Of a DNA stretch of 64,000 nt, positions 22,471 to 39,338 are shown in pieces; the stretch's first letter is position 1, and each line of letters opens with the position of its first letter. The stretch lies in assembly GCA_019187405.1 (NCBI GenBank), contig JABAQZ010000014.1, forward strand, positions 62,001 to 126,000, given 5' to 3'. Source of the stretch: Ignavibacteria bacterium. GTDB taxonomy: Bacteria; Bacteroidota; Ignavibacteria; Tepidaquicellales; Tepidaquicellaceae. Below the pieces are notes generated by a model. The model was not told the DNA's origin. It ran no database searches and saw nothing but the letters and a program-made list of their open reading frames with translations. The translations under genes and the position numbers were made by a program.

Positions 22471-23040
22471 ATGAATAAAGGATTCAATAATATCAAAAAG
22501 ATAGTAATAACCGGACCGCCGGGGTCTGGAAAGAGTTCACTTGCAAAGAAATTGGGAGAAATTACAGGATATGACATTCACCATTTGGATAGGTATTATC
22601 ACACAGCAAACTGGATACCGATAGATAAAAACGAGTTCACTGAAATAGTTTATGAAATAATACAGAGCGAAGAGTGGATAATAGATGGGAATTACAGAAG
22701 GACACTTGAGCTGAGAGTTGAACGAGCTGATTTAATTATTTATTTTGATTATTGTACGATTTTTAGTTTCTACAGAATATACAAAAGGATAGTTAAGACT
22801 AAGTTGTTTAGCATAAAGCGTACGGATATTTCGGATGACTGCAAGGAAAGGTGGTTTGATAAAAATTTTGTATTATGGACAATAAATTTCAACAGGCGAA
22901 ATAGAGTTGATATTATAAATATAATTAAAGATTACAAGTCAGATGTTGCTTTATTTTACATAATAAAATCGGCAAAGGATGCAGAAAAATTAATAGAATA
23001 TATTAAGTTTACGAGAAAATTTAATTCAGAGGCAGTTTGA
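22471..23040 (+). CDS. P-loop nucleoside/shikimate-kinase-like protein (FlaR-related)
   Basis: 189 residues. Walker A GPPGSGKSSLAKKL near residue 15, then DIHHLDRYYHTANW with the conserved Asp/His substrate region, IIDGNYRRTLELRVERADLIIYFD (Walker B-like) and a lid region rich in Arg/Lys. This is the family annotated as DNA topology modulation protein FlaR, adenylate-kinase-like proteins without a firm substrate. Last gene before the long palindrome array, whose first unit lies 29 bp after its stop. Confidence 0.78.
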   Translation: MNKGFNNIKKIVITGPPGSGKSSLAKKLGEITGYDIHHLDRYYHTANWIPIDKNEFTEIVYEIIQSEEWIIDGNYRRTLELRVERADLIIYFDYCTIFSFYRIYKRIVKTKLFSIKRTDISDDCKERWFDKNFVLWTINFNRRNRVDIINIIKDYKSDVALFYIIKSAKDAEKLIEYIKFTRKFNSEAV

Positions 23041-23519
23041 ATTTCGAATAAAGTATTACACAGATAACAGCAGCATAGATGTTGCATCATAAAATACAGC
23101 AACATAAATGTTGCGTTACAAAATACGGCAACATAAATGTTGCGTCACAAAATACGGTAACATAAATGTTGCGTCACAAAATACGGTAACATAAATATTG
23201 CGTCACAAAATACGGTAACATAAATGTTGCGTCACAAAATACGGTAACATAAATATTGCGTCACAAAATACGGTAACATAAATATTGCGTCACAAAATAC
23301 GGTAACATAAATATTGCGTCACAAAATACGGTAACATAAATGTTACGTCACAAAATACTGCAACATAAATGTTGATCAAAAAATACGGCAACATAAATGT
23401 TGCATCACAAAATACGGCAACATAAATATTGCGTCACAAAATGCAGCAACATAAATATTGCGTCACAAATCACTGCAACATTAATGTTGCGTTACAGAGC
23501 TTGGCAACATAAATGTTGC

Positions 23520-23624
23520 GTTACAAAATATCTGTTTAATAAATTGTGATATTGTAAAAACAAATTTTATAAACCGGTTTCTCGTAAGGGAATATTTTTT
23601 TAACTTAGTGCGATACATATCACT
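23520..23624. repeat. Array interruption, copy 1 (105 nt between cores)
   Basis: First of three near-identical interruptions inside palindrome array 1, replacing a 13-nt spacer by 105 nt. It has CTGTTTAATAAATTGTGATA, then the perfect 10-bp palindrome AAACCGGTTT, a T-rich run (AATATTTTTTTAACTTAG) and ends CATATCACT. No reading frame or known element is recognised in it. Confidence 0.9.
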
Positions 23625-23959
23625 GCAACATAAATGTTGCGTCACAAAATACTGCAACATAAATGTTGCGTCATAAATAACAGCAACACAAATGTTGCGT
23701 CACAAACTACAGCAACATAAATGTTGTGTTACAAACTACAGCAACATAAATGTTGCGTTACAAAATACAACAACATAAATGTTGCGTTACAGAGCTTGGC
23801 AACATAAATGTTGCGTTACAGAGCTTGGCAACATAAATGTTGCATTACAGAGCTTGGCAACACAAATGTTGCGTCACAAACTACGGCAACATAAATGTTG
23901 CGTCACAAACTACAGCAACATAAATGTTGCAATACAAACTAAAGAAACATAAAAGTTGC

Positions 23960-24064
23960 GTCATAAAAAATCTGTTTAATACATTGTGATATTGTATTAC
24001 TAATCTTATAAACCGGTTTCTCTTATAAGGAGTATTTTTTTAACTTAGTGCAATACAAACTAAA
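23960..24064. repeat. Array interruption, copy 2 (105 nt between cores)
   Basis: Most divergent of the three copies: the stretch before AAACCGGTTT and the stretch after it (CTCTTATAAGGAGTA) each differ by small indels that cancel, so the length is still 105 nt. The end is AATACAAACTAAA instead of CATATCACT. The unit just before it (23,944) is also a decayed core, GAAACATAAAAGTTGC. Confidence 0.9.
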
Positions 24065-24312
24065 GCAACATAAATGTTGCGTTACAGAGCTTGGCAACAT
24101 AAATGTTGCGTCACAAAATACGGCAACATAAATGTTGCGTCACAAAATACAGCAACATAAATGTTGCGTTACAGAGCTTGGCAACATAAATGTTGCGTCA
24201 CAAATAACAGCAACACAAATGTTGCGTCACAAACTACGGCAACATAAATGTTGCGTCACAAACTACAGCAACATAAATGTTGCAATACAAACTACAGCAA
24301 CATAAATGTTGC

Positions 24313-24417
24313 GTCATAAAAAATCTGTTTAATACATTGTGATATTGTAAAAACAAATTTTATAAACCGGTTTCTCGAAAGGGAATATTTTTTTAACTTA
24401 GTGCGATACATATCACT
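24313..24417. repeat. Array interruption, copy 3 (105 nt between cores)
   Basis: Almost identical to copy 1 across AAACCGGTTT and the T-rich run; it differs by a few bases, such as CTCGAAAGGG for CTCGTAAGGG. Its beginning (GTCATAAAAAATCTG) matches copy 2 instead. The mixed pattern suggests copying by unequal exchange within the array. Confidence 0.9.
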
Positions 24418-24694
24418 GCAACATAAATGTTGCGTCACAAAATACAGCAACATAAATGTTGCGTCACAAACTACAGCAACATAAATGTTGCGTCACAAAA
24501 TACAGCAACATAAATGTTGTGTCACAAACTACAGCAACATAAATGTTGCGTTACAGAGCTTGGCAACATAAATGTTGCATTACAGAGCTTGGCAACACAA
24601 ATGTTGCGTCACAAACTACAGCAACATAAATGTTGCATCACAAAATACTGCAACATAAATGTTGCGTCACAAAATACTGCAACATAAATGTTGC

Positions 24695-25526
24695 ATCACT
24701 CATTAACATAAGAACATAACGAAGTATAAAAACTCAACAGTACAACTTTACTTTTAAAATATGAATTTAATTCAGAGATTACTTAAGCAGATACACAAAC
24801 GATACATCAAATAGAAAAGATAAAACTTTTTAAGTCGAATCAAGATTTATTTATTCATTTACATCGTAGTTTAAATTTATCAATAATATTCAAGAATAAA
24901 TTTTACTTTTTACAATATGTTATTTATTGTCATTTTTGCCAATTTAAATTTAATGATAAATTATGAAGCAAATTAAAATTTTAAAATAAGTTTAAACTTA
25001 CTTTATGATATCTTTATGTGATTACGGTTTGAAAAAAATTTAATAAGTTTAAGTATAAAAAATTTTTACTTTGTTCCATTTTTACTTTCTTTGATATTTA
25101 TCTCAGTCGTTTCTTTATATAAAAAATTTGTTACAAAATAAATAAAGTAAAATGACTGAAAAAATTATATTCTGAACCTGTAGCAGCATGGGAAACCAGT
25201 GAGGTGCTGAAATTCTTGGTTCAAATATAGATAGTCAGGATTAAAGATTACAAAGGAATCCGTGACAGGAATAAGGAAACTGGATTTTAAAATTCATGAA
25301 ATCGAATTAGGATGTCTCAGCAAATCATAATTCCGGAAAGTATAATTGCATACGCCTTTACTTCCATTTCTGACGGGTATAATTTTTAACCGGAACAAGA
25401 GTAATATTCTTAATGAAAGTTCAATTTGGTAAAGCAGTTATATTGAGTAAAAGAGCAAGAAACTGCGATAAATCTTCCGATAGGCTGAAGCCTTTTACAT
25501 ATTTGTATAAAAGTTGATTTAAATAT
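24695..25526. other. Gene-free AT-rich stretch between palindrome array 1 and the suf region
   Basis: About 830 bp without a credible gene on either strand. The first half is very AT-rich. The second half, from about 25,150, is of more normal composition and has short open pieces in several frames that I could not assign to a family, so it may be an old, decayed gene. No tRNA, terminator or insertion-sequence end was recognised. Confidence 0.6.
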
Positions 25527-26600
25527 TTACATATATTCGATCTTAACGTCGTCTGTTAACGGATGAGACTGGCAAGTGAGAATATAACCCTGTTCAATTT
25601 CTGAATCTGATAATCCTTCACGTTCATCCATTTTAACTTTACCGGACAGCAGTTTTGCTCTGCATGTTGTGCAGATTCCGCTTTTACAAGAAAAAGGAGG
25701 ATCAAGATCAGCATTGATTGCCGAGTTGAGTATCGAACTATCGGGGGGGACTTTAATTTCATGTTCGTTACCATCCAGTAAAACCGTGACAGTTCTTTCT
25801 TTTAATTCTTCAGATATTGAAGCTTCAGGAATAAATTCATGATGTTTTGAAGGTGCATTAAAATATTCTATATGTATATTCTCATCTCTAACTTTTAAAT
25901 CAGTTAAAGTTTCTTTGACAAGATTCATCATTTTTTCCGGACCGCAAATGTAAAATTCTCTTTCTATTGAATCTGAAATCTGGTTATCAGATAAAATATT
26001 TATCAGATCATTTTTATTAATATTTCCGGTTAGATAATTCCAATTTTTCGAAGGGAAAATTAAAGTATATAGGATTTTAAGTTTAGATCCATGTGAATGA
26101 CAAAACATTTCAAGTTCTTTTCGAAACATTATGTTTTCCTCCGACTGATTACCATAATAAAGAATAACATTACTATCAGGTTCAATAAACAAAACGGATT
26201 TAAGAATCGAAAAAAGCGGAGTAATGCCGCTACCGCCTCCTATCAATACATATTGCTTTGAATTTTTAGAAATTAAATCTGAATAAAAATTTCCTTTTGG
26301 CGGAGAAACATCAATCACATCTCCTTCATATAAATTAAAATAAAGATAATTAGACACGGTACCATTGTTAACCCTTTTTGATGCAATAACGAAATCTTTA
26401 TCCGTATAAGGACTGCTGCATAGTGAGTATTCCCTTCTATGTTCTTTACCGTCGATATATAATTTTAACGTAACGAACTGACCCGGTTTGTATTTAAAAA
26501 CATCCTTAAGATTTTCCGGAATGTCAAAATAAACAGCAACAGCTTCATTTGTAAGATATTCTTTCTTTATGACTTTTATCGGAAAAGTTTTAAATGACAT
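25527..26600 (-). CDS. FAD/2Fe-2S oxidoreductase, PaaE/ferredoxin-NADP reductase-like
   Basis: 357 residues in three parts. An FAD-binding beta-barrel has HRREYSLCSSPYT (RxYS) and NGTVSNYLY. An NAD(P)-binding domain has GGGSGITPLFSIL and YICGPEKMMNLV. A C-terminal plant-type ferredoxin domain has the cluster ligands in CKSGICTTCRAKL plus the distal Cys in ILTCQSHP. This is the architecture of PaaE and related reductases that feed electrons from NADPH to an oxygenase or another acceptor. No oxygenase subunit is nearby; the gene follows sufT by 53 bp on the same strand. A role as electron donor to Fe-S assembly is possible but inferred only from position. Confidence 0.88.
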   Translation of the reverse strand: MSFKTFPIKVIKKEYLTNEAVAVYFDIPENLKDVFKYKPGQFVTLKLYIDGKEHRREYSLCSSPYTDKDFVIASKRVNNGTVSNYLYFNLYEGDVIDVSPPKGNFYSDLISKNSKQYVLIGGGSGITPLFSILKSVLFIEPDSNVILYYGNQSEENIMFRKELEMFCHSHGSKLKILYTLIFPSKNWNYLTGNINKNDLINILSDNQISDSIEREFYICGPEKMMNLVKETLTDLKVRDENIHIEYFNAPSKHHEFIPEASISEELKERTVTVLLDGNEHEIKVPPDSSILNSAINADLDPPFSCKSGICTTCRAKLLSGKVKMDEREGLSDSEIEQGYILTCQSHPLTDDVKIEYM

Positions 26601-26653
26601 AATGCTTATAATTCAATTGGAAAGAGAAAGGAAACGATTTTATAATAAACAAA

Positions 26654-27175
26654 CTATAAAAATCCAAGCTCAAGCTTAGCTACTTCACTCATCATATTCT
26701 GATTCCAAGGAGGATCAAATGTAAGTTGTACTTTACAGTCAGTAACTTTCGGATGACTTTTTACTTTTTGCTCGATTTCAGCAGGAAGAATTCCAGCAAC
26801 GGGGCAGGCAGGAGAAGTAAGAGTCATAATTATCATAACATCACCATTAACTGCTACAACAATATCATAAATTAATCCAAGTTCCCATACGTCAACAGGT
26901 ATTTCGGGATCATAACAGGTTTTTAAAACTTTAATCACTTCTTCTTTAACTTCTTCAACATTAACTTGTTTATCATTTAAAGCAACGGAAGAAGGTTCAT
27001 CGGTAACTTCTCGAGATTCAGCAGAATCAGGTATATCTGTGTTCAAATTATTATTATCGGATTTTTTTAATAACTCAGGATTATGGTTATCAAATTTCTG
27101 CTCCAGAGCAGACTTATCATTTCCAGAATCTGCAGAATCTTCTTTTGTAAACAGATTTTTTAATTTAGTTAACAT
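26654..27175 (-). CDS. SufT-like DUF59/MIP18-family Fe-S assembly protein
   Basis: 173 residues. The C-terminal 100 are the DUF59 (MIP18) domain: VLKTCYDPEIPVDVWELGLI, then TLTSPACPVAGILP with the conserved Cys, and VQLTFDPPWNQNMMSE. The N-terminal 70 residues are acidic and Asn/Ser-rich, probably disordered, and are an extension compared with usual SufT (about 100 residues). DUF59 proteins help mature or transfer Fe-S clusters; PaaD is a relative. Its start overlaps the sufE end by 11 bases, placing it inside the suf operon. Confidence 0.87.
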   Translation of the reverse strand: MLTKLKNLFTKEDSADSGNDKSALEQKFDNHNPELLKKSDNNNLNTDIPDSAESREVTDEPSSVALNDKQVNVEEVKEEVIKVLKTCYDPEIPVDVWELGLIYDIVVAVNGDVMIIMTLTSPACPVAGILPAEIEQKVKSHPKVTDCKVQLTFDPPWNQNMMSEVAKLELGFL

Positions 27176-27599
27176 TTTGATTTGAATAAACCATTGCGAA
27201 ATTTTTCATTTTACTTATCATTGCATTAAGACCATTTGCTCTGTTTGGCGATAAATGTTCTTTAAGACCAATTTCATTAATGAAATTCATATCAGCATTA
27301 AGTATTTCATCAGGTTTATTACCTGAAAGTACTCTTATCAGAAGAGAGATAATTCCTTTTGTAATAAGCGCGTCACTGTCAGCTTTAAAAAACAAATAAC
27401 CGTCTTTATAATCAGCATTAATCCAAACTTTGGACTGGCAGCCTTTTACTTCATAATTTTCATTTTTTAGATTTTCATCTATCAAAGGAAGTTTTTTGCC
27501 GAGTTCTATAATATATTCATATTTTCCTATCCAGTCATTGAAAAGTTCAAACTCGTCAATAATTTCTTTTTCGGTATTTTTAATATTACTTTCTGACAT
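27165..27599 (-). CDS. sufE: SufE sulfur-acceptor protein
   Basis: 144 residues. Accepts persulfide sulfur from SufS and passes it to the SufBCD scaffold. The acceptor Cys lies in VKGCQSKVWI near residue 54, and the family's LISLLIRVLSG and LSPNRANGLNAMISKM follow. It starts at the base where sufS ends, so translation is coupled. Length is typical. Confidence 0.93.
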   Translation of the reverse strand: MSESNIKNTEKEIIDEFELFNDWIGKYEYIIELGKKLPLIDENLKNENYEVKGCQSKVWINADYKDGYLFFKADSDALITKGIISLLIRVLSGNKPDEILNADMNFINEIGLKEHLSPNRANGLNAMISKMKNFAMVYSNQNVN

Positions 27600-28849
27600 T
27601 AAGACAACATTTTTTTAACTTTATGCAAGCCATCAATAAATCGGTCAATTTCTTCAACAGTGTTATAAACTGCAAAAGAAATCCTGACAGTTCCGGGTAA
27701 ATTATATCTTTGTTCAATTAACGGCTGCGTGCAGTGAAAGCCGGTTCTGACAGCAATGCCGAGATTGTCAAGTATCGAGCCGGTATCATACGGATGAATG
27801 CCATTAATGATAAATGAAATTACTCCGGTTTTATTTTTTGCATTTCCGATAATATTCATACCTTCAATTTCATTCATTCTGTTTTCTGCATATTTTAACA
27901 AATCAGATTCATGACGGGCAATATTAAGTAAACCTTTTTCATTGATAAAATCTATTGCAGAAGCAAGCGAAACGGCGCCTGAAATGTTTGGAGTACCTGC
28001 TTCAAATTTAAACGGGAGATTGTTGTATTCGGTATGCTCATAGGAAACATTTTTGATCATTTCACCGCCGAACTGATATGGAGGCATTAAGTCAAGATAC
28101 TTTTCTTTTGCATAAAGAATGCCGATACCGGTAGGTCCATAAGTTTTGTGACCTGAAAAAGCAAGAAAGTCGCAGTCAAGTTCTTTTACATCAATTTTAA
28201 TATGCGGAGATGCCTGAGCGGCATCAATAAAAACGGGAATATTGTAGCTGTGTGCAGCCGAGATAATTTCCTTAACGGGATTAATTGTGCCGAGAGTATT
28301 TGAAACATACACAACCGATATGAACTTAACTTTTTCATTAAGCATTGATTTAAACTCATCCATAACAAGTTCGCCGTTATCGGTAATGGGAATAAATTTT
28401 AAAAGAGCTTTTTTTCTTGATGTTAAATTTTGCCAGGGAACAAGATTTGAGTGATGCTCCATAGCCGAAACAATTATTTCGTCTCCTTCATTTATAAACT
28501 GCATTCCGTATGTAGAAGCTGCAAGATTAACAGCTTCAGTAGTTCCTCGGACAAAAATGATTTCATTTGATCCCGATGCACTAATAAACTCTCTGACTTT
28601 TTCACGTGAATTTTCATAAGCTTCGGTTGCTCTTTCGCTTAAAGTATGAATTCCTCTGTGAACGTTGCTGTTAATGGTTTCGTAATATTCACGGATTGAA
28701 TTAATAACGGACAGGGGTTTTTGATTAGTAGCTGCATTGTCAAAATAGACCAACGGACATCCGTTTATCTGCTGATCAAGCAGCGGAAATTCTTTACGAA
28801 GTTTATAAACATCAAAGGAAATATTTTCATTTACAATATCAATATTCAC
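27599..28849 (-). CDS. sufS: SufS cysteine desulfurase
   Basis: 416-residue PLP enzyme of class V aminotransferase fold (group II desulfurase). YFDNAATNQKP opens the fold; AMEHHSNLVPWQ, DAAQASPH and FSGHKTYGPTGIG (PLP lysine) form the active site; the persulfide Cys is in RTGFHCTQPL. It takes sulfur from cysteine, giving alanine, and works with SufE encoded next. Lies 4 bp after sufD. Confidence 0.95.
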   Translation of the reverse strand: MNIDIVNENISFDVYKLRKEFPLLDQQINGCPLVYFDNAATNQKPLSVINSIREYYETINSNVHRGIHTLSERATEAYENSREKVREFISASGSNEIIFVRGTTEAVNLAASTYGMQFINEGDEIIVSAMEHHSNLVPWQNLTSRKKALLKFIPITDNGELVMDEFKSMLNEKVKFISVVYVSNTLGTINPVKEIISAAHSYNIPVFIDAAQASPHIKIDVKELDCDFLAFSGHKTYGPTGIGILYAKEKYLDLMPPYQFGGEMIKNVSYEHTEYNNLPFKFEAGTPNISGAVSLASAIDFINEKGLLNIARHESDLLKYAENRMNEIEGMNIIGNAKNKTGVISFIINGIHPYDTGSILDNLGIAVRTGFHCTQPLIEQRYNLPGTVRISFAVYNTVEEIDRFIDGLHKVKKMLS

Positions 28850-28853
28850 TTAA

Positions 28854-30182
28854 TTAAGATTTAAGTTTTAATTGAAGAGTATGATAAAGTTTAATTCTGA
28901 GCGCATCAATTTTTACAGAGTCAATTACATCGCTTGCAAATGCATTAAGAAGAAGAATCCTAGCATCATTTTCGCTTATACCTCTGGAACGGAGATAAAA
29001 CATCTCTTCTTTACTAAGCTGTCCGGAAGTTGCACCGTGGCTGCATTTCACATCATCGGCAAAAATTTCGAGCTGGGGTTTTGAATAAATCGTTGCATCA
29101 TCAGAAAGCAGTATGTTGTTATTCGATTGATATGCATTCGTTTTTTGTGCATCGGGATGCACCATAATTTTACCGTTAAATACTCCCGTTGCACTGCCGT
29201 CGATGATACCTTTATACAATTCATTGCTGAAACAATTAGGCATCTTGTGATCGGCAAGAGTGTGATTATCGACATGCTGTTTTCCGTCAAGCAGATAAAG
29301 CCCATAGAAATGACATTCGGTATTTGTTCCGTTGAATACAGAATTCAGATTATTTCTAATGATAGAGCCTCCCCATGAAACGGTAGTATCAGAAAACTTA
29401 CTATCTCTTTCCTGATGCACCTGTGTTGTTCCAATGTGGAATGAATTATCTCCGTCATTCTGAATTTTGTAATGCTCAAGATTGGAATTTTGAGCACAGT
29501 AAATTTCAGTTACAGCATTTGTAAAGTTATAATTACTCCCAACAGTAAAATAATCTTCGGAAATTTTTATGCTCGAACCTTCTTCAAGAACAATTAAATT
29601 TCTCGGCTGTGAAAGCATTACATTATTTACTGCATCGGAGATATAAAGAATATGGACAGGGATGTTATTGACAGAATTTTTTTTCAAATAGATAAATGCT
29701 CCGTCTTTTGAAAATGCAGTATTCAAAGCAGTCATAGAGTTGCTTTTAAAATCGGCATATTTTGAAAAGTGTTGTTCAACAAAATCACCGAACTTTGTCG
29801 TTGCCTCAGCAAGACTGCCCGAATAACAACTGTCGTTATCAGTTATTTTATCGGAAAGAGATTCATCAAAAAATCCGTTTATAAAAACGAGATTAACCGC
29901 ATCTTTCAAGAAATATTTACCAACAAAATCTTTTGTAAGCGTATGTTTAGCTAATTGCGTTGATTGTTTAAAATCATGCTTAAGCACAGGATTGATGTTT
30001 GTATATTTCCACTCTTCGAGTTTTTTTACCGGAAAACCAAGTCTATTGAAGCAATCAAAAGCATCTATTTTAATTTTATTAAGTATGCTGTTTGCTTTTC
30101 CGTTTAATGATTTTTCAAATTTCTGAAAATCGGAAACAAGCTTTAATTTTAGGTCTGTATTTTCTATTTCAGTTTTAGTCAT
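28854..30182 (-). CDS. sufD: SufD, Fe-S scaffold subunit
   Basis: 442 residues. The N-terminal helical domain has WKYTNINPVLKHDF. The C-terminal right-handed beta-helix contains NLVFINGFFDES, GKQHVDNHTLADHKMPNCFS and CSHGATSGQLSKEEMFYLRSRG, the signature that ends SufB/SufD proteins; the H of CSHG matches the cluster-assembly His of SufD. It forms the SufBC2D complex with the two genes upstream. Lies 69 bp from sufC. Confidence 0.94.
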   Translation of the reverse strand: MTKTEIENTDLKLKLVSDFQKFEKSLNGKANSILNKIKIDAFDCFNRLGFPVKKLEEWKYTNINPVLKHDFKQSTQLAKHTLTKDFVGKYFLKDAVNLVFINGFFDESLSDKITDNDSCYSGSLAEATTKFGDFVEQHFSKYADFKSNSMTALNTAFSKDGAFIYLKKNSVNNIPVHILYISDAVNNVMLSQPRNLIVLEEGSSIKISEDYFTVGSNYNFTNAVTEIYCAQNSNLEHYKIQNDGDNSFHIGTTQVHQERDSKFSDTTVSWGGSIIRNNLNSVFNGTNTECHFYGLYLLDGKQHVDNHTLADHKMPNCFSNELYKGIIDGSATGVFNGKIMVHPDAQKTNAYQSNNNILLSDDATIYSKPQLEIFADDVKCSHGATSGQLSKEEMFYLRSRGISENDARILLLNAFASDVIDSVKIDALRIKLYHTLQLKLKS

Positions 30183-30251
30183 TTTTTTGGCGATTCATCA
30201 TAAATCAAAAAAGTTAAATATAAAAAGTTCAAAGAACCCGTGGTTAAAAGA

Positions 30252-31025
30252 TTATTTAGCAATTTCTTCCAAATGTTCGGCAACCCAGTCATATCCGTAT
30301 TCCTCAAGATGCAGAGCGAGACTTTTGTCTCCAGATTTTACAATTTTTCCTTCATACATCACATGCACAAAATCCGGAACGATATAATTCAGCAATCTTT
30401 GATAATGCGTAATTACAATAAATGCATTATCTTTTGAGCGAATTTTGTTAACGCCGTCGGCTACAATTTTCAAAGCATCAATATCAAGGCCGGAATCAGT
30501 TTCGTCGAGTATAGATAATTTAGGATTCAGCATTGCAAGTTGAAAGATTTCATTTCGTTTTTTTTCTCCACCCGAGAATCCAACATTAACATATCTTCCA
30601 AGCATTTGCGGATCAATATCAACAAGTTTAGCTTTTTCTTTTATCATTTTCAGAAAGTCAACCGAGCTCATAGGATCTTCTCCTTTTGATTTCCTGATAT
30701 CGTTTACCGCAGTTTTTAAAAAATTTGTATTTGACACACCTGGAATCTCCACAGGATACTGGAATGCAAGGAATATTCCTTCGCGGGCTCTTTCTTCCGG
30801 TGCAAGCTCAAGAAGGTTTTTTCCTTCGAAGAGTACTTCACCTTCTTCTACTTCATATCCTTCACGTCCGGTCAGGACTGATGCGAGAGTACTTTTACCG
30901 GAACCGTTTGGACCCATTATGGCATGAACTTCGCCTGCTTTGATTTGCAGATTTAAGCCTTTTAAAATTTCTTTTCCGCCTTCATCGGTTTCAACTTTTG
31001 CTTTTAAGTTTTTTATTTCTAGCAT
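30252..31025 (-). CDS. sufC: SufC, ABC-type ATPase of Fe-S assembly
   Basis: 257 residues. Walker A GPNGSGKSTLASVL near residue 38, Q-loop in FLAFQYPVEIPGV, ABC signature SGGEKKRNEIFQ, Walker B LSILDETDSGLD with SufC's characteristic E-T-D-S-G, and the switch His in VITHYQRLL. It drives conformational change in the SufBD scaffold and is not a transporter. 53 bp downstream of sufB. Confidence 0.96.
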   Translation of the reverse strand: MLEIKNLKAKVETDEGGKEILKGLNLQIKAGEVHAIMGPNGSGKSTLASVLTGREGYEVEEGEVLFEGKNLLELAPEERAREGIFLAFQYPVEIPGVSNTNFLKTAVNDIRKSKGEDPMSSVDFLKMIKEKAKLVDIDPQMLGRYVNVGFSGGEKKRNEIFQLAMLNPKLSILDETDSGLDIDALKIVADGVNKIRSKDNAFIVITHYQRLLNYIVPDFVHVMYEGKIVKSGDKSLALHLEEYGYDWVAEHLEEIAK

Positions 31026-31078
31026 TTTTATAAGTTAGGACAATTTAAATTTATCAAGATATATTTTAATCAGGAAAA

Positions 31079-32524
31079 TTACCCGACGCTTCCTTCGAGC
31101 GAAATGGCAAGCAGTTTCTGAGCTTCGACGGCAAATTCCATGGGCAGTTGATTTAATACTTCTTTTGCGTATCCGTTTACAATAAGGGCAACTGCATCTT
31201 CTTCTGAAATTCCTCTTTGATTACAGTAAAACATAATATCTTCTCCTATTTTGGAAGTCGTAGCTTCATGTTCCACTATAGCGGATTTATTTTTTATTTC
31301 AAAGTAAGGAAATGTGTGTGCGCCGCATTTATCTCCCATTAACAATGAATCGCATTGAGAAAAATTGCGGGCATTATCGGCGCGTTTACTTACCTGAACA
31401 AGTCCTCTGTAACTATTGTTGCTTTTACCGGCTGAAATTCCTTTTGATACAATTCTGCTTTTAGTATTCTTGCCTAAATGCATCATTTTTGTTCCAGTAT
31501 CAGCTTGTTGAAAATTATTGGTAAGAGCAACTGAATAGAATTCGCCGATTGAGTTGTCACCTTTAAGAATTACGCTTGGATACTTCCAGGTAATTGATGA
31601 GCCTGTTTCGACCTGAGTCCAAGATATTTTCGAGTTATCACCTGAGCAGATTCCTCTTTTTGTTACAAAATTATAAATACCGCCTTTACCTTCGGCATCA
31701 CCGGGATACCAGTTCTGAACGGTAGAATACTTTATCTCAGCATTTTTTAAAGCAATTAATTCAACAACAGCGGCATGCAGCTGATTTTCATCTCTCATCG
31801 GAGCAGTACAGCCTTCAAGATAGCTCACATAACTTCCTTCATCAGCAATAATCAAAGTCCTTTCGAACTGTCCGGTATTCTCAGCATTTATTCTGAAATA
31901 AGTGGATAACTCCATCGGACATCTAACATTTTTAGGGATATATACGAAAGAGCCGTCTGTAAACACGGCAGAATTTAATGCCGCAAAATAATTATCTGAC
32001 TGTGGAACTACAGCTCCAAGATACTTTTTTATCAGTTGGGGATGATTTACTATTGCTTCACTCATTGAGCAAAAAATGATTCCGAGTTCGGCGAGTTTTT
32101 CTTTATAAGTTGTTGCAACTGAGACACTATCCAAAACTGCATCTACGGCAACACCAGCAAGAATAAGCTGTTCTTCCAACGGAATTCCGAGTTTATCATA
32201 AGTATTTTTAATTGCAGGATCAAGCTCATCCAGACTTCCGAGTTTCTTTTTAGTTTTAGGAGCTGCATAATAAATGATATCATTGTAATCAATCGGCGGA
32301 TATTTGACATTCGGCCAATTAGGTTCAGTCATTTTAAGCCATATATTGTAAGCTTTTAACCTCCATTCAAGCAAAAACTCCGGTTCATTTTTTTTTGATG
32401 AAATTAATTCTATAATTTCTTTATTCAAACCTTTTGGCGCTTTATCCATTTCAAGGTCTGTATAAAATCCGTATTTATAATCGCTTGAAGTTACTTTTTC
32501 AAGAATATCGTCTTCTTTTACCAT
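31079..32524 (-). CDS. sufB: SufB, Fe-S scaffold subunit
   Basis: 481 residues, close to the usual 470-495. Contains the family motifs [41 protein letters not shown] (with the cluster-related Cys), [23 protein letters not shown] and the C-terminal [21 protein letters not shown]. It hosts the nascent cluster with SufC and SufD. First gene of the suf operon, with an IscR/Rrf2-type palindrome 35 bp upstream of its ATG. Confidence 0.96.
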
Positions 32525-32558
32525 AAATTATAGAAATGTATTTAAAATATTTAATTAG

Positions 32559-32571
32559 GACTAAATTAGTC
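32559..32571. promoter_or_regulatory. Putative IscR/Rrf2-type operator of the suf operon
   Basis: The sequence GACTAAATTAGTC is a 6+1+6 palindrome that fits the core of the E. coli IscR type 1 site (GACT, five bases of the form R-W-W-W-Y, AGTC) at every position. It lies 35 bp upstream of the sufB ATG, where a repressor would cover the promoter. IscR and SufR are Fe-S sensing Rrf2-family regulators of suf/isc operons. No rrf2 gene lies in the window, so the regulator is inferred. The outer bases of the IscR consensus are only partly kept. Confidence 0.55.
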
Positions 32572-32695
32572 TTATTTAAAATTAAAATAAAGGCAAATTT
32601 CGATTTTCTTTAAGCAAAAATTTGATATTAAAAAGAAAAATGCAGTTAATTTTATGAATAATAAACTTAATTTGCATTTAAAAATATAAAAATAT

Positions 32696-33934
32696 ATGAA
32701 GTTAAGAGTATACATAACATCAGTATTCATTATAGTAATATTTTTTTCAAAGACTGCATTATGCGGAAATACAGTTATATCATTTTTAAATGGGAGAGTC
32801 ATAGATGAAAGAGGATTTCCAATACAAGGTGTAAAAGTAATCATAGAAAATCTTGAAAAACTAACTGACATTAACGGAAGTTTTAGTTTTCAAAATATAA
32901 TTTCACCTTATGAAGTCACCATAGCAGAGAGATATACAAATACTGCGGTAATATACAAAGAGTTGACGGTAACAAATCCTGATTTGGTATTATTTGGAGA
33001 CATGGGAGAATATTTTGCCAACAAAGTACACCTGAACATCAAAATTTCAAAAATATCTGAAAGCAGTAGTTCAACAATTAAATTCATAAGCACGAATGCA
33101 TTTACATCAACCCAGGAAGAAGTTTCTGAAGGAGACAGTTTGGTAAAATTGACAGTGAGTTGGCCAATTAACAGAAACAGCATTGAGGGTGAACTGATTT
33201 TAATACAAAAAAATGATAAGGGATATCAGTTTTTAAAAAGACAAAATATAAGTTTAAACAAAGGTAGAAATAATTATGAAATTACATTTGATACAAAGAA
33301 AGAAAAAAAGTTAAACTCTTCGAATCTTAAATTATTTTTTTATGATAAGAATTACAAAATAAACAAGCTCAAATTATCTTTAAACTTTTTCAATTACGAT
33401 AAAAATGCAGAGATAAATTTAGCAGAAGAATACGGTAACAGCAGCAGCATAAAAATTGTGATACCGGATAAGTTTACTGAATCGATAAAATTCAGAGTTA
33501 CAGGAATAGCAGAAAGTGAAAACGGCAAAGGATTCATAAGTTACAATTATGCTTCACCTGAGGAGCAGATCAAAGTAGTGAATGAAACACCACCGGAGCT
33601 TGAGACACCTCTAAATAATTTTCTTGCAGTTGACGGTGATACGAGGTTTTCATATTCATCTGGTACTGGAGCTGGAATTTATGTGCTGGAGTTCAAAAGT
33701 TTTAATCCGGTAATGAATTTTTTCATAGTAACCCGGGAAAGGGAGACATATTTCAGGTACTTATCAAGGAGTGAATTCAATTCTGCCAATATCAGTTTTG
33801 ACTGGCGTGTCAGAAAATACATAACTTATTTTAATACCGATGATTTTGTAAAACCCAGTATATTTAAGAATGATTTTTCGTATAAGGCAGTATTGTATTC
33901 ACAGAGAAGAAATTTTAAAACCGGTTATTACTAA
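32696..33934 (+). CDS. Exported protein with CarboxypepD_reg-like domain
   Basis: 412 residues with a signal peptide (VYITSVFIIVIFFSKTALCG, cut near residue 24). Residues 30-80 form a carboxypeptidase-regulatory-like beta domain (GRVIDERGFPIQGVKVII, DINGSFSFQNI), often found on surface proteins. The remaining 330 residues are beta-rich and unassigned; no protease motifs were seen. It is divergent from the suf operon and shares its promoter region, 171 bp between starts. It meets era tail to tail with overlapping stop codons. Function unknown, probably periplasmic or surface. Confidence 0.7.
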   Translation: MKLRVYITSVFIIVIFFSKTALCGNTVISFLNGRVIDERGFPIQGVKVIIENLEKLTDINGSFSFQNIISPYEVTIAERYTNTAVIYKELTVTNPDLVLFGDMGEYFANKVHLNIKISKISESSSSTIKFISTNAFTSTQEEVSEGDSLVKLTVSWPINRNSIEGELILIQKNDKGYQFLKRQNISLNKGRNNYEITFDTKKEKKLNSSNLKLFFYDKNYKINKLKLSLNFFNYDKNAEINLAEEYGNSSSIKIVIPDKFTESIKFRVTGIAESENGKGFISYNYASPEEQIKVVNETPPELETPLNNFLAVDGDTRFSYSSGTGAGIYVLEFKSFNPVMNFFIVTRERETYFRYLSRSEFNSANISFDWRVRKYITYFNTDDFVKPSIFKNDFSYKAVLYSQRRNFKTGYY

Positions 33935-34821
33935 AATAAATTTTTCTTGATATAATTTTTTTCTTTTCTCCAGTCTTTTTTGATTTTGATAAACAGATTA
34001 AGGAACACTTTTTTATCAAAAAAAGATTCAAGTTTTTTTCTGGCAAGTTCACCGAGTCTTTTCAGACCTTGTCCTTTTTTTCCGATCAGGATTGCTTTTT
34101 GAGATTCCCTTTCGAGAATAATATCGGCATTTATGAAAATAAGGTTTTCGGTTCTTTCCTTAAATTCGGTTACATTAACAAGACAGCTATAAGGAATTTC
34201 ATCATGATATAGAGAAAGAATTTGTTCACGTATAATTTCAGAAGCGAGAAATTTTTCTGATTTATCTGTTAAAGATTCTTTTTCGTAGAAAAAACCGCTT
34301 GCAGGAAGTTTATCAACGATTAACTTTTTAAGACTGTCGGTGTTTTCTTTTTTTAAAGCTGAAACAGGAACAATTTCAGAATCAATTTCTTTACTGGAAA
34401 TCAATTTAATTAAAGGAAGAAGTTTATTTTTATTAACAAGATCAATTTTATTCAGGACAATTATAATTTCCTTTCCGCTCAATGAAGATTTGAACTGCGT
34501 ATTGAATGCATCAAAAGAATCGAGATCTGGTTTAACGGCATCGATCAGAAAAATTATCAAATCTGCTTCATCTAAAGAAGAGACTATTTCATTGAACATA
34601 AAATTATGCAATTCATATTCGGGTTTGAGAATCCCGGGAGTATCAAGAAAAACAATCTGAAAATCCTTTCCGGTAAGTATGGCTTTAATTTTATTCCTTG
34701 TAGTCTGAGCTTTTTTATTAACAACGGAAATATTGTAATCTACAAGAGTATTTACAAGGGTTGATTTTCCAGAATTTGGTTTACCTATTACCGCAACAAA
34801 TCCAGCCTTACTATTCACCAA
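33931..34821 (-). CDS. era: GTPase Era
   Basis: 296 residues. G1 GKPNSGKSTLVNTL, G3 DTPG with LKPEYELHNFM, G4 NKID and G5-like VSALK make the GTPase domain; the C-terminal type II KH domain has ILIGKKGQGLKRLGELARKKLE and FIKIKKDWR. Era binds the 3' end of 16S rRNA and checks 30S ribosome assembly. The start is TTG or the next codon GTG, both overlapping the end of the lipoprotein gene upstream, so translation is probably coupled. Confidence 0.96.
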   Translation of the reverse strand: MVNSKAGFVAVIGKPNSGKSTLVNTLVDYNISVVNKKAQTTRNKIKAILTGKDFQIVFLDTPGILKPEYELHNFMFNEIVSSLDEADLIIFLIDAVKPDLDSFDAFNTQFKSSLSGKEIIIVLNKIDLVNKNKLLPLIKLISSKEIDSEIVPVSALKKENTDSLKKLIVDKLPASGFFYEKESLTDKSEKFLASEIIREQILSLYHDEIPYSCLVNVTEFKERTENLIFINADIILERESQKAILIGKKGQGLKRLGELARKKLESFFDKKVFLNLFIKIKKDWRKEKNYIKKNLF

Positions 34822-35278
34822 GTATTTTTATTTGATGTTTGAAATATAAAATCATTTGAGGTTTGTTTTTATAAATCGAAATTTTACCTGTTACCAGGAC
34901 ATTTTTATTTTTAAATCCGGTTAAATCACCGAAGGAAGTAAAATATTTTTTAAAAATTGTGCAAGTAAATGTATTTTTAGGAAACTTATTATCAAAATTA
35001 AGGTAAGCAACTTTTTCACTGACATATACATCTGCAACATAACCATGGACAGTAATGGAATCACCAATATGGTTTTTTGCTTCTGCCGGGCTAATGGATT
35101 CTGAAGAAAAAGCAAACTCCGATTTCGGAGACGAATCATCAATTTTATGAGTTTCAGATTTTAGTTTATCCTTATTCTTTTTAATTTTGATTTCTTCATT
35201 CAGGTTATCGTTTCCACAATTAAGACAGCATACCGAAAAAACAATTACAAAATTAAGTTTATAAAAAATATTTTTCAT
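34811..35278 (-). CDS. Putative lipoprotein with OB-fold-like domain
   Basis: 155 residues. The hydrophobic start (IFYKLNFVIVFSVCCLNCGNDN) carries a possible lipobox with Cys near residue 22, so it is likely a lipoprotein. A Lys/Glu-rich linker of about 35 residues follows. The C-terminal 85 residues (GDSITVHGYVADVY, VAYLNFDNKFP, FKNKNVLVTGKISIYKNKPQMIL) match a small OB-fold of the tRNA_anti-like kind, seen also in envelope proteins. Function unknown. It overlaps era by 11 bases. Confidence 0.65.
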   Translation of the reverse strand: MKNIFYKLNFVIVFSVCCLNCGNDNLNEEIKIKKNKDKLKSETHKIDDSSPKSEFAFSSESISPAEAKNHIGDSITVHGYVADVYVSEKVAYLNFDNKFPKNTFTCTIFKKYFTSFGDLTGFKNKNVLVTGKISIYKNKPQMILYFKHQIKILGE

Positions 35279-35461
35279 TATTAGTCAGATATCTTTTGTA
35301 TGTGTGTTGATTACATTAGCTAATAACAAAGTTTTTGCATCATTATAAATTAAATTGTACTTGCGGATAAATCATTAAAGACATTGCAGAGTAAAAATGT
35401 AATTGAATCGATGTAGTTGCTATATTTCAAATTATCCGCAAATAAAAAATTATAAACAATT

Positions 35462-36190
35462 TCACTTTTGCTTATTTTTTGCATCAGTTAAGACAATGGA
35501 AAAATCTCTTTCCATTTCGGGTTTAAGTTGAATTGCTTTTTCCAGATCTGTCACAGCATTAACATAATTTCCCATCTGATAATAAGCAAGCCCTCTTGCG
35601 GCATAAGCGGCAGCTTTATTTTGAATATTTGAAATATAAGTTGTAAGATCTTTGATAGCGTCATTATAATTTGCCATAGAAACAAGTACTTCACCTCTTA
35701 TCAGATATGCTTCAATCAAAGCCGGGTTAATATTCAGAGAGTTGTTAAGGTCAGAAATTGCTTCTGCATATTGGTTTTGGAGTTTATAAACAACTGCTCT
35801 ATTAAGATAAGCTTCTGCGAAGTCAGGGTTAGAAAAAATTGCCGAATTAAAATCCAAAATAGCATTTGAATACATTTGCATGGAAGTATAGATTAAACCT
35901 CTTAAATTTAGGGCGAATGTGTACTGCGGATTACTGGTAACAGCATCGGTTGCATCTTGTAAAGCCGGCTCAAACTGTTGCAGTGAATAATACGCAAACG
36001 CTCTATTAAATCTTGCAACGGCATTTTGCGGATCAGAGTCGAGAAATTGAGTAAGATAATCAATAGCTTTTTCAAAATTTTTTATTTCAACTTCTTTAAT
36101 CCCGAGATTTAGATATTCTGAAGAGGTAAGTTGAGCATAGCAGATAGGAGTAACTAGGAATAAAAATAAATAAATTAAAATTTTTTTCAT
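35462..36190 (-). CDS. Exported tetratricopeptide-repeat protein
   Basis: 242 residues from the ATG giving MKKILIYLFLFLVTPICYAQ, a clean signal peptide; the longer frame adds 13 unlikely residues before it. Then come about six TPR units of 34 residues, with repeats such as AIDYLTQFLDSDPQNAVARFNRA, AILDFNSAIFSNPDFAEAYLNRA and AISDLNNSLNINPALIEAYL. TPR proteins bind partner proteins or peptides; envelope ones in Bacteroidota often support outer-membrane machines. No partner is indicated by the neighbours. A 183-bp AT-rich spacer separates it from the lipoprotein gene. Confidence 0.8.
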   Translation of the reverse strand: MKKILIYLFLFLVTPICYAQLTSSEYLNLGIKEVEIKNFEKAIDYLTQFLDSDPQNAVARFNRAFAYYSLQQFEPALQDATDAVTSNPQYTFALNLRGLIYTSMQMYSNAILDFNSAIFSNPDFAEAYLNRAVVYKLQNQYAEAISDLNNSLNINPALIEAYLIRGEVLVSMANYNDAIKDLTTYISNIQNKAAAYAARGLAYYQMGNYVNAVTDLEKAIQLKPEMERDFSIVLTDAKNKQK

Positions 36191-36291
36191 ATTTTTCAGC
36201 AAGCTAAAAAAGTTAGCGGATTGAATCAATAGAAAATCGGGATTGAGAGTAAAATTTCAACATTTTTTACTTTAAAAAAATAACAAAACAT

Positions 36292-36957
36292 TTATAATAA
36301 AGAGTAATCAATGACACAATAACTCCATTTCCAGTCATTTTGTTTGTCAGTCATACCTGATCTTACAGGATTATTCATAATGTATTTTACAATTCTTTTA
36401 AGTTCAAATTCGTCTCTGACAACATGGTCAAAACTTTCATGATGCCAGAATTGACCAGTTCGGTTTAATATCAGATTTGATTCTCTAGCAGTAGAACCTT
36501 TAATCAATCTAAGAGTATCTGCAAGAGCATAATTTTTTGTTTTGCCGAAATTATTTAATTCTGAAACTTTTATGTTATCAAGAAGAAATATAACTAAATG
36601 AACATGGTTAGGTTCAATATCAAAAGCAATTAATTCGTATTTAACAGAGTTAAGTTCAAAAATTTTTTTATATATTATCGAAGCGATATCTTCATTCAAA
36701 AGATATTTTGGTCCATATTCACATTTATCCAGAATAGAATCATATTTAGCGAAATTCATTTTCTGGAGTTCATATAATTTTGCTTTTAAAACGGAAGGAT
36801 CATAGTATTTTGAAATAAGTTTTTTTCTTTCAGATTCATAGTTTAGACGAAGATTTTTTAAAATAAAATCGGGAATAGAGCCGGCAAGTCTAAATGTAAT
36901 TAAGAATGCAGAGTCTAACGGTTGATAATGGGGTAAATTTCTAAAGTACTTGATCAT
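36292..36957 (-). CDS. REP-associated tyrosine transposase (RAYT, Y1/HUH superfamily)
   Basis: 221 residues. Single-strand DNA nuclease fold: the HUH motif is PNHVHLVIFLL, and the catalytic Tyr is in ELKRIVKYIMNNPVRSGM, whose IVKYIMNNPV is diagnostic of REP-associated transposases, as are GQFWHHESFDHVV and the ending W-K-W-S-Y. The N-terminal FRNLPHYQPLDSAFLITFRLAG matches the same group. RAYTs occur as single copies and are thought to process or spread REP palindromes. The first palindrome of array 2 lies 50 bp upstream of its ATG. No IS200-type end structures were recognised. The gene appears intact. Confidence 0.88.
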   Translation of the reverse strand: MIKYFRNLPHYQPLDSAFLITFRLAGSIPDFILKNLRLNYESERKKLISKYYDPSVLKAKLYELQKMNFAKYDSILDKCEYGPKYLLNEDIASIIYKKIFELNSVKYELIAFDIEPNHVHLVIFLLDNIKVSELNNFGKTKNYALADTLRLIKGSTARESNLILNRTGQFWHHESFDHVVRDEFELKRIVKYIMNNPVRSGMTDKQNDWKWSYCVIDYSLL

Positions 36958-37007
36958 AATTTGCTTTGGTTTCCTTAAATAGAAAAAATGTTATTTTACT
37001 TTACATT

Positions 37008-37727
37008 GCAACATAAATGTTGCATCACTTTAATCTGCAACATAAATGTTGCATTACTTTAATTTGCAACACAAATGTTGCACTACTTTACGTCGCAACA
37101 TAAATGTTACATCACTTTAATCTGCAACATAAATGTTGCATCACTTTAATTTGCAACATAAATGTTGCACTACTTTAATCTGCAACATAAATGTTGTATC
37201 ACTTTAATCTGCAACATAAATGTTGCATCACTTTAATCTGCAACATAAATGTTGCATCACTTTAATTTGCATCATAAATGTTGCATTACTTTAATCTGCA
37301 ACATAAATGTTGCACTACTTAATCAAGAAAGTCTAAAAGTGTAACTCTTAGCAAAGATCCGATTTTGGAAAGTTAAATTGTTGTAAATAATCCTTTCCAC
37401 ACAGTTAATTGGTAAAGAGTATAGTAAACTTTATAGACAGTACCTGATTTACTCCGCAACATAAATGTTGCATCACTTTACTCTGCAACATAAATGTTGC
37501 ACTACTTTACTCCGCAACATAAATGTTGCATCACTTTACTCCGCAACATAAATGTTGCACCACTTTAATCTGCAACATAAATGTTGCATCACTTTACTCC
37601 GCAACATAAATGTTGCATCACTTTCCAACGCAACATAAATGTTGCATCACTTTACTCCGCAACATAAATGTTGCATCACTTTAATCCGCAACATAAATGT
37701 TGCTTTACAACGCAACATAAATGTTGC
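37008..37727. repeat. Palindrome array 2: 21 copies of the same 16-bp inverted repeat next to the RAYT gene
   Basis: The core GCAACATAAATGTTGC recurs 21 times, 17 exactly. Nineteen-step spacing is 29 bp except one 158-bp interruption between copies 11 and 12 and a final 24-bp step. Spacers are 13 nt: mainly ATCACTTTAATCT before the interruption and ATCACTTTACTCC after it, so each half is homogenised separately. The core is often extended to T...A outer pairs, giving 8-bp arms. The orientation is the same as array 1, and the base block after the core (R-T-Y-A-C) is shared by both arrays, while the remaining 8 nt differ. The array lies between the RAYT start and the terminator of the aldehyde dehydrogenase gene. 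Confidence 0.97.
37314..37455. other. Unique interruption inside palindrome array 2
   Basis: 142 nt without the core, beginning with a normal spacer start (ACTACTTAATC) and ending in GATTTACTCC, the spacer type of the following half. It is not similar to the interruptions of array 1. No gene, hairpin or target-site duplication was recognised. Confidence 0.7.
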
Positions 37728-37774
37728 TTCACTTTACATCAATCCCTTTTCTTGAGTAAGATATTTTTATACAT

Positions 37775-37803
37775 AAAAAAAGGCAGTTGAAATCTGCCTT
37801 TTT
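37775..37803 (-). terminator. Rho-independent terminator of the aldehyde dehydrogenase gene
   Basis: A 10-bp stem, AAAAAGGCAG with CTGCCTTTTT, closes a 7-nt loop (TTGAAAT), and A-runs on one side and T-runs on the other give U-tracts in both directions. It begins about 20 bp after the stop of the minus-strand dehydrogenase gene and would also stop plus-strand transcription leaving array 2. Confidence 0.85.
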
Positions 37804-37823
37804 ACTTTTTTATGAAGTTTATT

Positions 37824-39338
37824 TTAATAATTATCTATCTGCGCACGCTGTAGTTTTCCGGAATAATCCACATACACTGCTTTCCATTCTGTGTAAAAAT
37901 CATAAACTGTCCAGCCTCCTTCTCGATGACCATTTCCAGTCTGCTTTACACCGCCAAACGGCATGTGAGCTTCTGCACCTATAGTTGCTCCGTTAATATA
38001 AGTAATTCCGGCTTTTATGTCCCTGACAGCTTTAAATGCATTGTTCACATTATTTGTAAAAATACTTGATGATAAACCATATTTGGTATCGTTAAGTATT
38101 TTAATTGCATCATCCAGATCATTGCATTTGATTACCGATAATACCGGACCGAAAATTTCTTCTTGCTCAATCCTCATACCGGGTTTTACTTCAGAAAAAA
38201 TAGTAGGTTTATAAAACCAGCCTTTTGACAGATCATCTTCTTTAGCAAATTCACCGCCGCACACTAATTTGGCTTTGTCTTCTTTGATTCCGATTTTTAC
38301 ATACATGTCAACTGATTCTCTTTGGGATTCACTTACACACGGACCAACGTCAATATCTTTATCATTTCCATAACCAAGTTTGAGCTTATTAACTCTGTCA
38401 GTAAGTTTATTTAAAAATTCATCATGAATATCTTTATGAAGTATAAGTCTTGATGTTGCTGTGCATCTCTGTCCTGTAGTTCCGAAAGCTCCCCACAAAA
38501 CCGCGTCAAGAGCAAGTTCCTGATTAGCATCATTCATTACAATCTGCGCGTTCTTTCCTCCGAGTTCCAGTGATACTCTCTTCAGACTGCCGCCGGCAAC
38601 CTGATTAATTCTCATTCCAACTTCAGTGGAACCGGTAAAAGAAATCAAATCAACATCAGGATTTGAAATCATGGCTTCTCCTACAATTCGGCCTTTGCCG
38701 TGAACAATGTTGATTACACCGGGGATATAATTTTTTCCGAGAATTTCCTTAATCGAACTGTCAATAATTTCAACAAGCGTAGATGCAGTTTTTGGTGTAA
38801 GTTCAGCAGGTTTAAACACACAGGTGTTTCCGCAAACAAGTGCAGGAAATAATTTCCAGGTTGGTATTGCCATTGGAAAATTCCATGGCGTAATAAATCC
38901 GCCTACGCCTATTGGTGTTCTGAAGCTTAAATTCATTTTATCGGGCAATTCACTCGGAGCATTATATCCGAATAATCTTCTGCCTTCGGATGCAGCATAA
39001 TATGCAGTATCAATGCCTTCTTGAACATCGCCTTTGGTTTCTGCAAACACCTTTCCCATTTCACGTGTCATCTCATGTGCTATTTCATCTTTTCTTTCAT
39101 TCATTTTATCTCCGACTAATTTCAGAATGTCGCCGCGTTTTGGCGCAGGAATAAGTCTCCATTTTTCAAATGCAGCTTTTGCGGCTGCAACTGCTTCATC
39201 GGTATCCTCTTTTGAAGAAGATGGAAAAATTCCAATCAGATCCTCTTTCCATTTTGCCGGATTTCTGTTTTCAAAAGTATTTCCGCTGGTGGAATCTTTC
39301 CAAATTCCATTAATAAGATTTTTAAATTTTTCAGCCAT
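37824..39338 (-). CDS. NAD(P)-dependent aldehyde dehydrogenase
   Basis: 504 residues, full-length ALDH. Seen: TPWNFPMAIPTWKLFPAL (cofactor binding), FTGSTEVGMRI, SLELGGKNAQIV (general-base Glu), FGTTGQRCTATSRLI (catalytic Cys), QEEIFGPVLSVIKC, and MPFGGVKQTGNGHREGG near the end. It oxidises an aldehyde to its acid in the cytoplasm. The C-terminal part resembles semialdehyde dehydrogenases of amino-acid breakdown, but the substrate is not certain. Divergent from lhgO with 138 bp between starts; a link to lysine or 2-hydroxyglutarate metabolism would fit but is inference. Confidence 0.9.
   Translation of the reverse strand: MAEKFKNLINGIWKDSTSGNTFENRNPAKWKEDLIGIFPSSSKEDTDEAVAAAKAAFEKWRLIPAPKRGDILKLVGDKMNERKDEIAHEMTREMGKVFAETKGDVQEGIDTAYYAASEGRRLFGYNAPSELPDKMNLSFRTPIGVGGFITPWNFPMAIPTWKLFPALVCGNTCVFKPAELTPKTASTLVEIIDSSIKEILGKNYIPGVINIVHGKGRIVGEAMISNPDVDLISFTGSTEVGMRINQVAGGSLKRVSLELGGKNAQIVMNDANQELALDAVLWGAFGTTGQRCTATSRLILHKDIHDEFLNKLTDRVNKLKLGYGNDKDIDVGPCVSESQRESVDMYVKIGIKEDKAKLVCGGEFAKEDDLSKGWFYKPTIFSEVKPGMRIEQEEIFGPVLSVIKCNDLDDAIKILNDTKYGLSSSIFTNNVNNAFKAVRDIKAGITYINGATIGAEAHMPFGGVKQTGNGHREGGWTVYDFYTEWKAVYVDYSGKLQRAQIDNY

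Follow-up and report, generated by a model that had tools for sequence, protein, structure and literature searches.

The window, a stretch of 64,000 nucleotides from an Ignavibacteria bacterium, carries an intact RAYT gene next to a tandem array of a short hairpin, GCAACATAAATGTTGC, which sequence comparisons indicate is very probably the REP of this RAYT. The host genome comprises 3.78 Mb in 38 contigs, with the window on contig C6. The RAYT adjoins one of the five arrays of the hairpin in this genome; the other four have no adjacent RAYT. The arrangement is probably a REP/RAYT system in which REPs were seeded at five loci and the arrays grew by local tandem duplication.

The RAYT protein

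The RAYT gene (positions 36292–36957, reverse strand) encodes a TnpAREP-type HUH-Y1 transposase of 221 amino acids, identified from its open reading frame, profile searches, alignments and a structure match. It is intact, as the initial annotation had stated, with the HUH motif H118-V-H120 (36598–36606, reverse strand) and the catalytic tyrosine Y192 (36382–36384, reverse strand) in place; H118, H120 and Y192 occupy invariant columns when 9 or 14 RAYTs are aligned. A profile built from nine RAYTs has Escherichia coli TnpAREP as its best match (4er8; E = 2.4e-10), with Y115 of that protein aligned to Y192. The best Foldseek match of the predicted RAYT model (mean pLDDT 83.8) is also 4er8, a TnpAREP in complex with a REP hairpin, followed by the ISDra2 and IS608 transposases. 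The protein therefore combines an HUH motif and one catalytic tyrosine with an IS200-like fold that is closest to TnpAREP. Its family scores are 22.9 bits for Pfam Y1_Tnp (cut-off 23) and 55 bits for NCBIfam REP_Tyr_transpos, below the cut-off of 80. Loss of the catalytic tyrosine, suggested by ESFDH in place of the ESYDH of relatives, was ruled out, since the catalytic residue is Y192 in KYIMNNP.

In E. coli TnpAREP, the residues contacting GTAG are W94, Q95, E100, H101 and R104 (PMC6006769). Profile alignment places these in the region W171–R181 of the window RAYT (36415–36447, reverse strand), where the corresponding residues are W, H, D, H and R.

Hairpin arrays in the window

The array beside the RAYT begins 51 bp upstream of the start codon (50 bp in the initial annotation) and contains the 21 units originally counted, spanning 37008–37727. 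Unit mapping resolves it into 11 units (37008–37313), a 142-nt interrupter specific to this array (37314–37455) and 10 units (37456–37727), with the REP strand being the RAYT strand, that is, the reverse strand. The 29-bp period holds in both parts but is not fixed throughout, as had been claimed: the interrupter splits the units 11 + 10, and the last spacing is 24. Seventeen units are exact and four have one mismatch. All lie in a single orientation on one side of the gene only, and the array itself is situated between two genes of the same strand.

A second array, of 47 units with no RAYT adjoining, occupies 23070–24694 on the reverse strand. It contains three interrupters of 105 nt (23520–23624, 23960–24064 and 24313–24417), the middle one being 87–89% like the other two. 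Across the window, the hairpin 16-mer has 131 matches at no more than three mismatches, compared with 1.14 expected, a count reached in none of 100 shuffles.

On the RAYT strand, the unit reads 5'-GTRRY-GCAACATTTATGTTGC followed by a tail of 7–8 nt. Folded as single-stranded DNA, it forms a 6–7-bp stem with a TTTA loop (−6.3 kcal/mol, z = −3.4). The heads in the host genome are mostly GTGA and GTAA, with GTAG or GTGG in some units, and are thus close to the canonical GT[AG]G but not identical to it. The anatomy of the hairpin is that of a REP. A known RNA family was ruled out, as Rfam gave no match across 22900–38000.

Pairing of hairpin and RAYT

Three RAYTs served as queries against 84,980 species genomes in a single scan. 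The nearest relative of the window RAYT elsewhere, found by protein alone, has 49% identity and belongs to another phylum (locus L120, a Caldithrix abyssi MAG). It is flanked by GTATC-TCAACATTTATGTTGA, which has the 14-bp core in common with the window hairpin, and by close variants. None of 394 other genomes of the phylum contains the headed hairpin GTANNNCAACATTTATGTTG. One genome (G029) has a single exact 16-mer with no GTRR head, which was regarded as a chance match. RAYTs with more similar proteins also have more similar hairpins (Mantel r = 0.437, p = 0.0002 for 21 non-redundant RAYTs; r = 0.638 across all 29), in a set whose hairpins were chosen by their GTR head and in which shared ancestry is only partly controlled. 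The hairpins of more distant RAYTs are unrelated, in line with the co-evolution described earlier (PMC2817692).

The stem also shows compensatory changes. In G004, a related genus, 61 cores are scattered singly or in inverted, REPIN-like pairs (loci L147–L157). Among the 31 distinct copies that were read, a GTA head is present in 29, and the closing pair is complementary in all 31 (GC 13, TA 10, AT 8), compared with a mean of 14 and a maximum of 23 in shuffles. At L147, three core copies are spaced exactly 212 bp apart. No RAYT of the window-RAYT group was detected in this fragmented draft, the best match reaching 14 bits with seven stops. Another draft genome (G020) has three core copies and only a distant RAYT, at 40 bits.

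The gene is thus tied to a specific REP-like hairpin family. The GTRR head, the compensatory stem changes, the common core beside the Caldithrix RAYT and the co-variation of RAYT and hairpin together argue that GCAACATAAATGTTGC is very probably the REP of the window RAYT. The initial annotation had named arrays of the same core in RAYT-free genomes as evidence against its proposal; G004 and G020 do carry the core without a close RAYT, but in dispersed form rather than in arrays, and both are drafts.

Arrays across the genome

The host genome contains 140 exact copies of the 14-mer core, all inside the five arrays. Contig C1 has 45 units with a period of 28, contig C15 has 53 with a period of 29, and the two arrays of the window have 47 and 21 with a period of 29; these four hold 132 exact cores. 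The remaining eight are on contig C24, with a period of 25 and an A-T closing pair. REP copies are many and lie outside genes where examined, but they are not dispersed between genes as REPs commonly are: at the level of the exact 14-mer, none was found elsewhere in the genome.

Core and tail have evolved differently. Per-position variation is 1.4–3.7% in the core and 15–28% in the tail (core lower than tail, p = 0.0004–0.011). Cores are equally alike inside one array and across arrays (identity 0.96), whereas tail identity falls from 0.67 within arrays to 0.34 between them. No spacing in the arrays equals two periods, so that the constancy of the core does not simply result from how the units were picked. 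Units are co-oriented in every array, and neighbouring units are more alike than random ones in two of four arrays (p = 0.0002 and 0.0012; the other two not significant).

The interrupters, of 105–253 nt, are array-specific, and a search for homology between those of different arrays gave none of note. On C15, they join the downstream flank (33 nt, 85%) to the upstream flank (78–80 nt, 98–100%), as would be expected if the entire locus had been duplicated in tandem. Because the core is near-invariant everywhere while tails and interrupters are specific to each array, the arrays were seeded independently, each locus then being amplified locally.

Unrelated minisatellites in control stretches (120 kb, with three arrays of at least four copies) rule out that tandem arrays in this genome are confined to REPs. 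Long arrays without an apparent REP occur on C8 (period 22, 126 copies), C3 (period 139, 4 copies) and C12 (period 34, 4 copies). The C8 minisatellite (L205:16614–19375) extends over 2.8 kb with about 126 copies of TCTCACGCAGATTACGCAGAAG and has no apparent link to a RAYT.

Other RAYTs of the genome

Two further RAYTs, on C7 and C22, sit inside arrays of other hairpins. The C7 RAYT has 12–13 direct copies of CACAGACTGATAGTCTGTG on each side, with a period of 44, and the identical hairpin occurs at a RAYT with 54% identity to it (locus L139). Far from this RAYT, on C11, the same hairpin recurs in another array (16 units, period 40, canonical GTAG). At the C22 RAYT there are 3 + 4 direct copies of CCTTGAGCAGGGATGCTCAAGG, which matches the hairpin of the nearest relative RAYT at 10 of 14 positions.

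Several of these neighbourhoods have features of their own. The C7 RAYT and its arrays (L100:6373–10323) are bounded by a Card1-like nuclease gene on one side and a Csm6-type (NE0113) CRISPR ring-nuclease gene on the other, and a RAYT with the C7-type hairpin in genome G060 (L160:180–2094, G060:C157) also adjoins an NE0113 gene. RAYTs with hairpin repeats are found in frame inside Eco57I-type restriction-modification methylase genes at L101:4348–9003 (G000:C22), L167:1–2682 (G060:C32) and L116:5000–8263 (G025:C1). The C22 methylase locus is one open frame of 1552 amino acids, in which the hairpin encodes the peptide TLSIPAQG and the periods are multiples of three; the embedded RAYT of G060 occupies the same spot as in the host genome and has other hairpins, and that of G025 occupies a different spot. 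Three RAYT-like open reading frames were also observed. One on C11 has five GTAG-headed hairpins, GGGCAACCATTGTGGTTGCCC, with a period of 50 about 330 bp away (L150:6012–6253); one on C4 is about 310 bp from an array with 11 copies of a 16-bp unit (L117:6131–6308); and a small one at the start of C6 (L119:223–821) is flanked on both sides by long hairpins, GCGTCAGGACTTCCGTCCTGACGC.

Origin of the arrays

In the account that we consider probable, the RAYT would recognise the single-stranded hairpin 5'-GTRRY-GCAACATTTATGTTGC as its own REP family, and REPs would have been seeded at five loci, among them the 5' flank of the RAYT gene. At each locus, local tandem duplication would have multiplied a REP and a few flanking bases head to tail, through unequal recombination or replication slippage, possibly aided by nicking at the hairpins. 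Separate local amplification would explain why each array has its own tail, period and interrupters. Loss of RAYT recognition in damaged hairpins, or some other advantage of intact ones, may have kept the hairpin constant. Binding and cleavage of the hairpin by the RAYT, the way in which REPs reached five loci and the cause of the constraint are the steps that we infer. For the length of the arrays, ordinary tandem amplification does at least as well as the RAYT, and is the most economical source in view of the long REP-free arrays of the genome and the array-free relatives with the same RAYT–hairpin pairs. The predominance of GTGA and GTAA heads, the one-sided direct REPs, the limitation of significant neighbour similarity to two of four arrays and the REPs of G004 without a detectable RAYT count against the REP/RAYT account.

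The initial annotation had gone further, proposing that the RAYT recognises the hairpin and also created or maintains the arrays. Recognition is supported by the very probable cognate pairing (GTRR head, shared core at L120, co-variation). Array building by the RAYT, which could excise REP-bearing circles or join REP ends head to tail at replication forks, is an unlikely source of the arrays. It would fit the regular runs of at least four units at all three close RAYTs of the host genome versus 2 of 33 other RAYT loci (Fisher p = 0.0014), many of the latter being from fragmented assemblies where arrays could be lost. The co-orientation of the units within an array and the ability of TnpAREP to cleave and rejoin REP strands in vitro (PMC8266576) are also consistent with it. 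However, only one of the five arrays has a RAYT next to it, the interrupters show local duplication of whole segments with their flanks, and the same genome contains long minisatellites with neither RAYT nor REP. Moreover, L120 and L139, relatives with the same RAYT–hairpin pairs, have no array, although arrays elsewhere may be hidden by fragmented assemblies. Slightly less probable again is the broader view of RAYTs as array builders that have remodelled three unrelated families of REPs into satellite-like arrays of uniform orientation, with few or no dispersed copies left.

It is more doubtful still, to the point of being improbable, that the arrays are host elements, such as transcription pause or end sites or binding sites of a host protein, with the RAYT carried in or hitchhiking. 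The strong constraint on the core even in arrays without a RAYT, the persistence of the hairpin in G004 and G020 and the position of the RAYT array between two same-strand genes would suit such a role, but hairpin identity tracks RAYT phylogeny rather than host phylogeny, the arrangement recurs with three unrelated hairpins, and Rfam gave no match. Chance proximity of a minisatellite and a transposase gene can be dismissed: the genome is fairly rich in tandem arrays (the three in the 120-kb control), but at this density fewer than an estimated 2% of genes should have an array no more than about 350 bp away, yet all three close RAYTs have one, and both the Mantel result and the absence of GTANNNCAACATTTATGTTG from the 394 genomes speak against it.

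The REP/RAYT system with locally grown arrays bears on how REPs spread and on what keeps RAYTs single-copy. Each of two clear RAYT–hairpin pairs has an array-free counterpart in a relative with a related RAYT and an identical hairpin core. Set beside these and a genus in which the hairpins occur but no RAYT was detected, the present genome would allow recognition of the hairpin to be told apart from growth of the arrays. The near-invariant hairpins amid freely varying tails are a natural record of the positions that matter.

Relation to known REP/RAYT systems

Earlier work has established REPs with GT[AG]G heads, REP families tied to particular RAYTs and genomes with several RAYTs (PMC2817692, PMC6006769). 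The REPtrons of E. coli, Stenotrophomonas and Marinomonas (PMC2817692, PMC6006769, PMC8266576) resemble the present system in their TnpAREP-fold HUH-Y1 protein, a separate hairpin family for each RAYT, a GT-purine head and several RAYT/REP pairs per genome; the loop TTTA is also that of Marinomonas REPMb. However, REPtrons have two inverted REPs, whereas the arrays here are direct and one- or two-sided, the window RAYT having direct copies on one side only. The heads here are mostly GTGA or GTAA, and no dispersed exact copies are present.

Closer parallels exist for the arrays. Pseudomonas fluorescens SBW25 has tandem REP arrays and REPIN clusters beside each of its three RAYTs (PMC3116915), with evenly spaced, co-oriented REPs, a different cluster at each RAYT and flanking DNA duplicated along with the REP. 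Its arrays contain up to 12 REPs at longer periods, and most of its REPs are dispersed REPINs, in contrast to the 8–53 units, periods of 25–29 and lack of dispersed exact cores found here. Large tandem REP clusters with flanking DNA are known in other species (PMC3733652); those of the GTAG type, such as the GTAG-1 arrays of Thauera, differ in also having dispersed copies and canonical GTAG tails or heads. We found no description of such arrays in Ignavibacteria within the open-licence literature. Tandem REP clusters, including clusters beside RAYTs, have therefore been published before, and the system described here is an unusually array-dominated form of REP/RAYT system.
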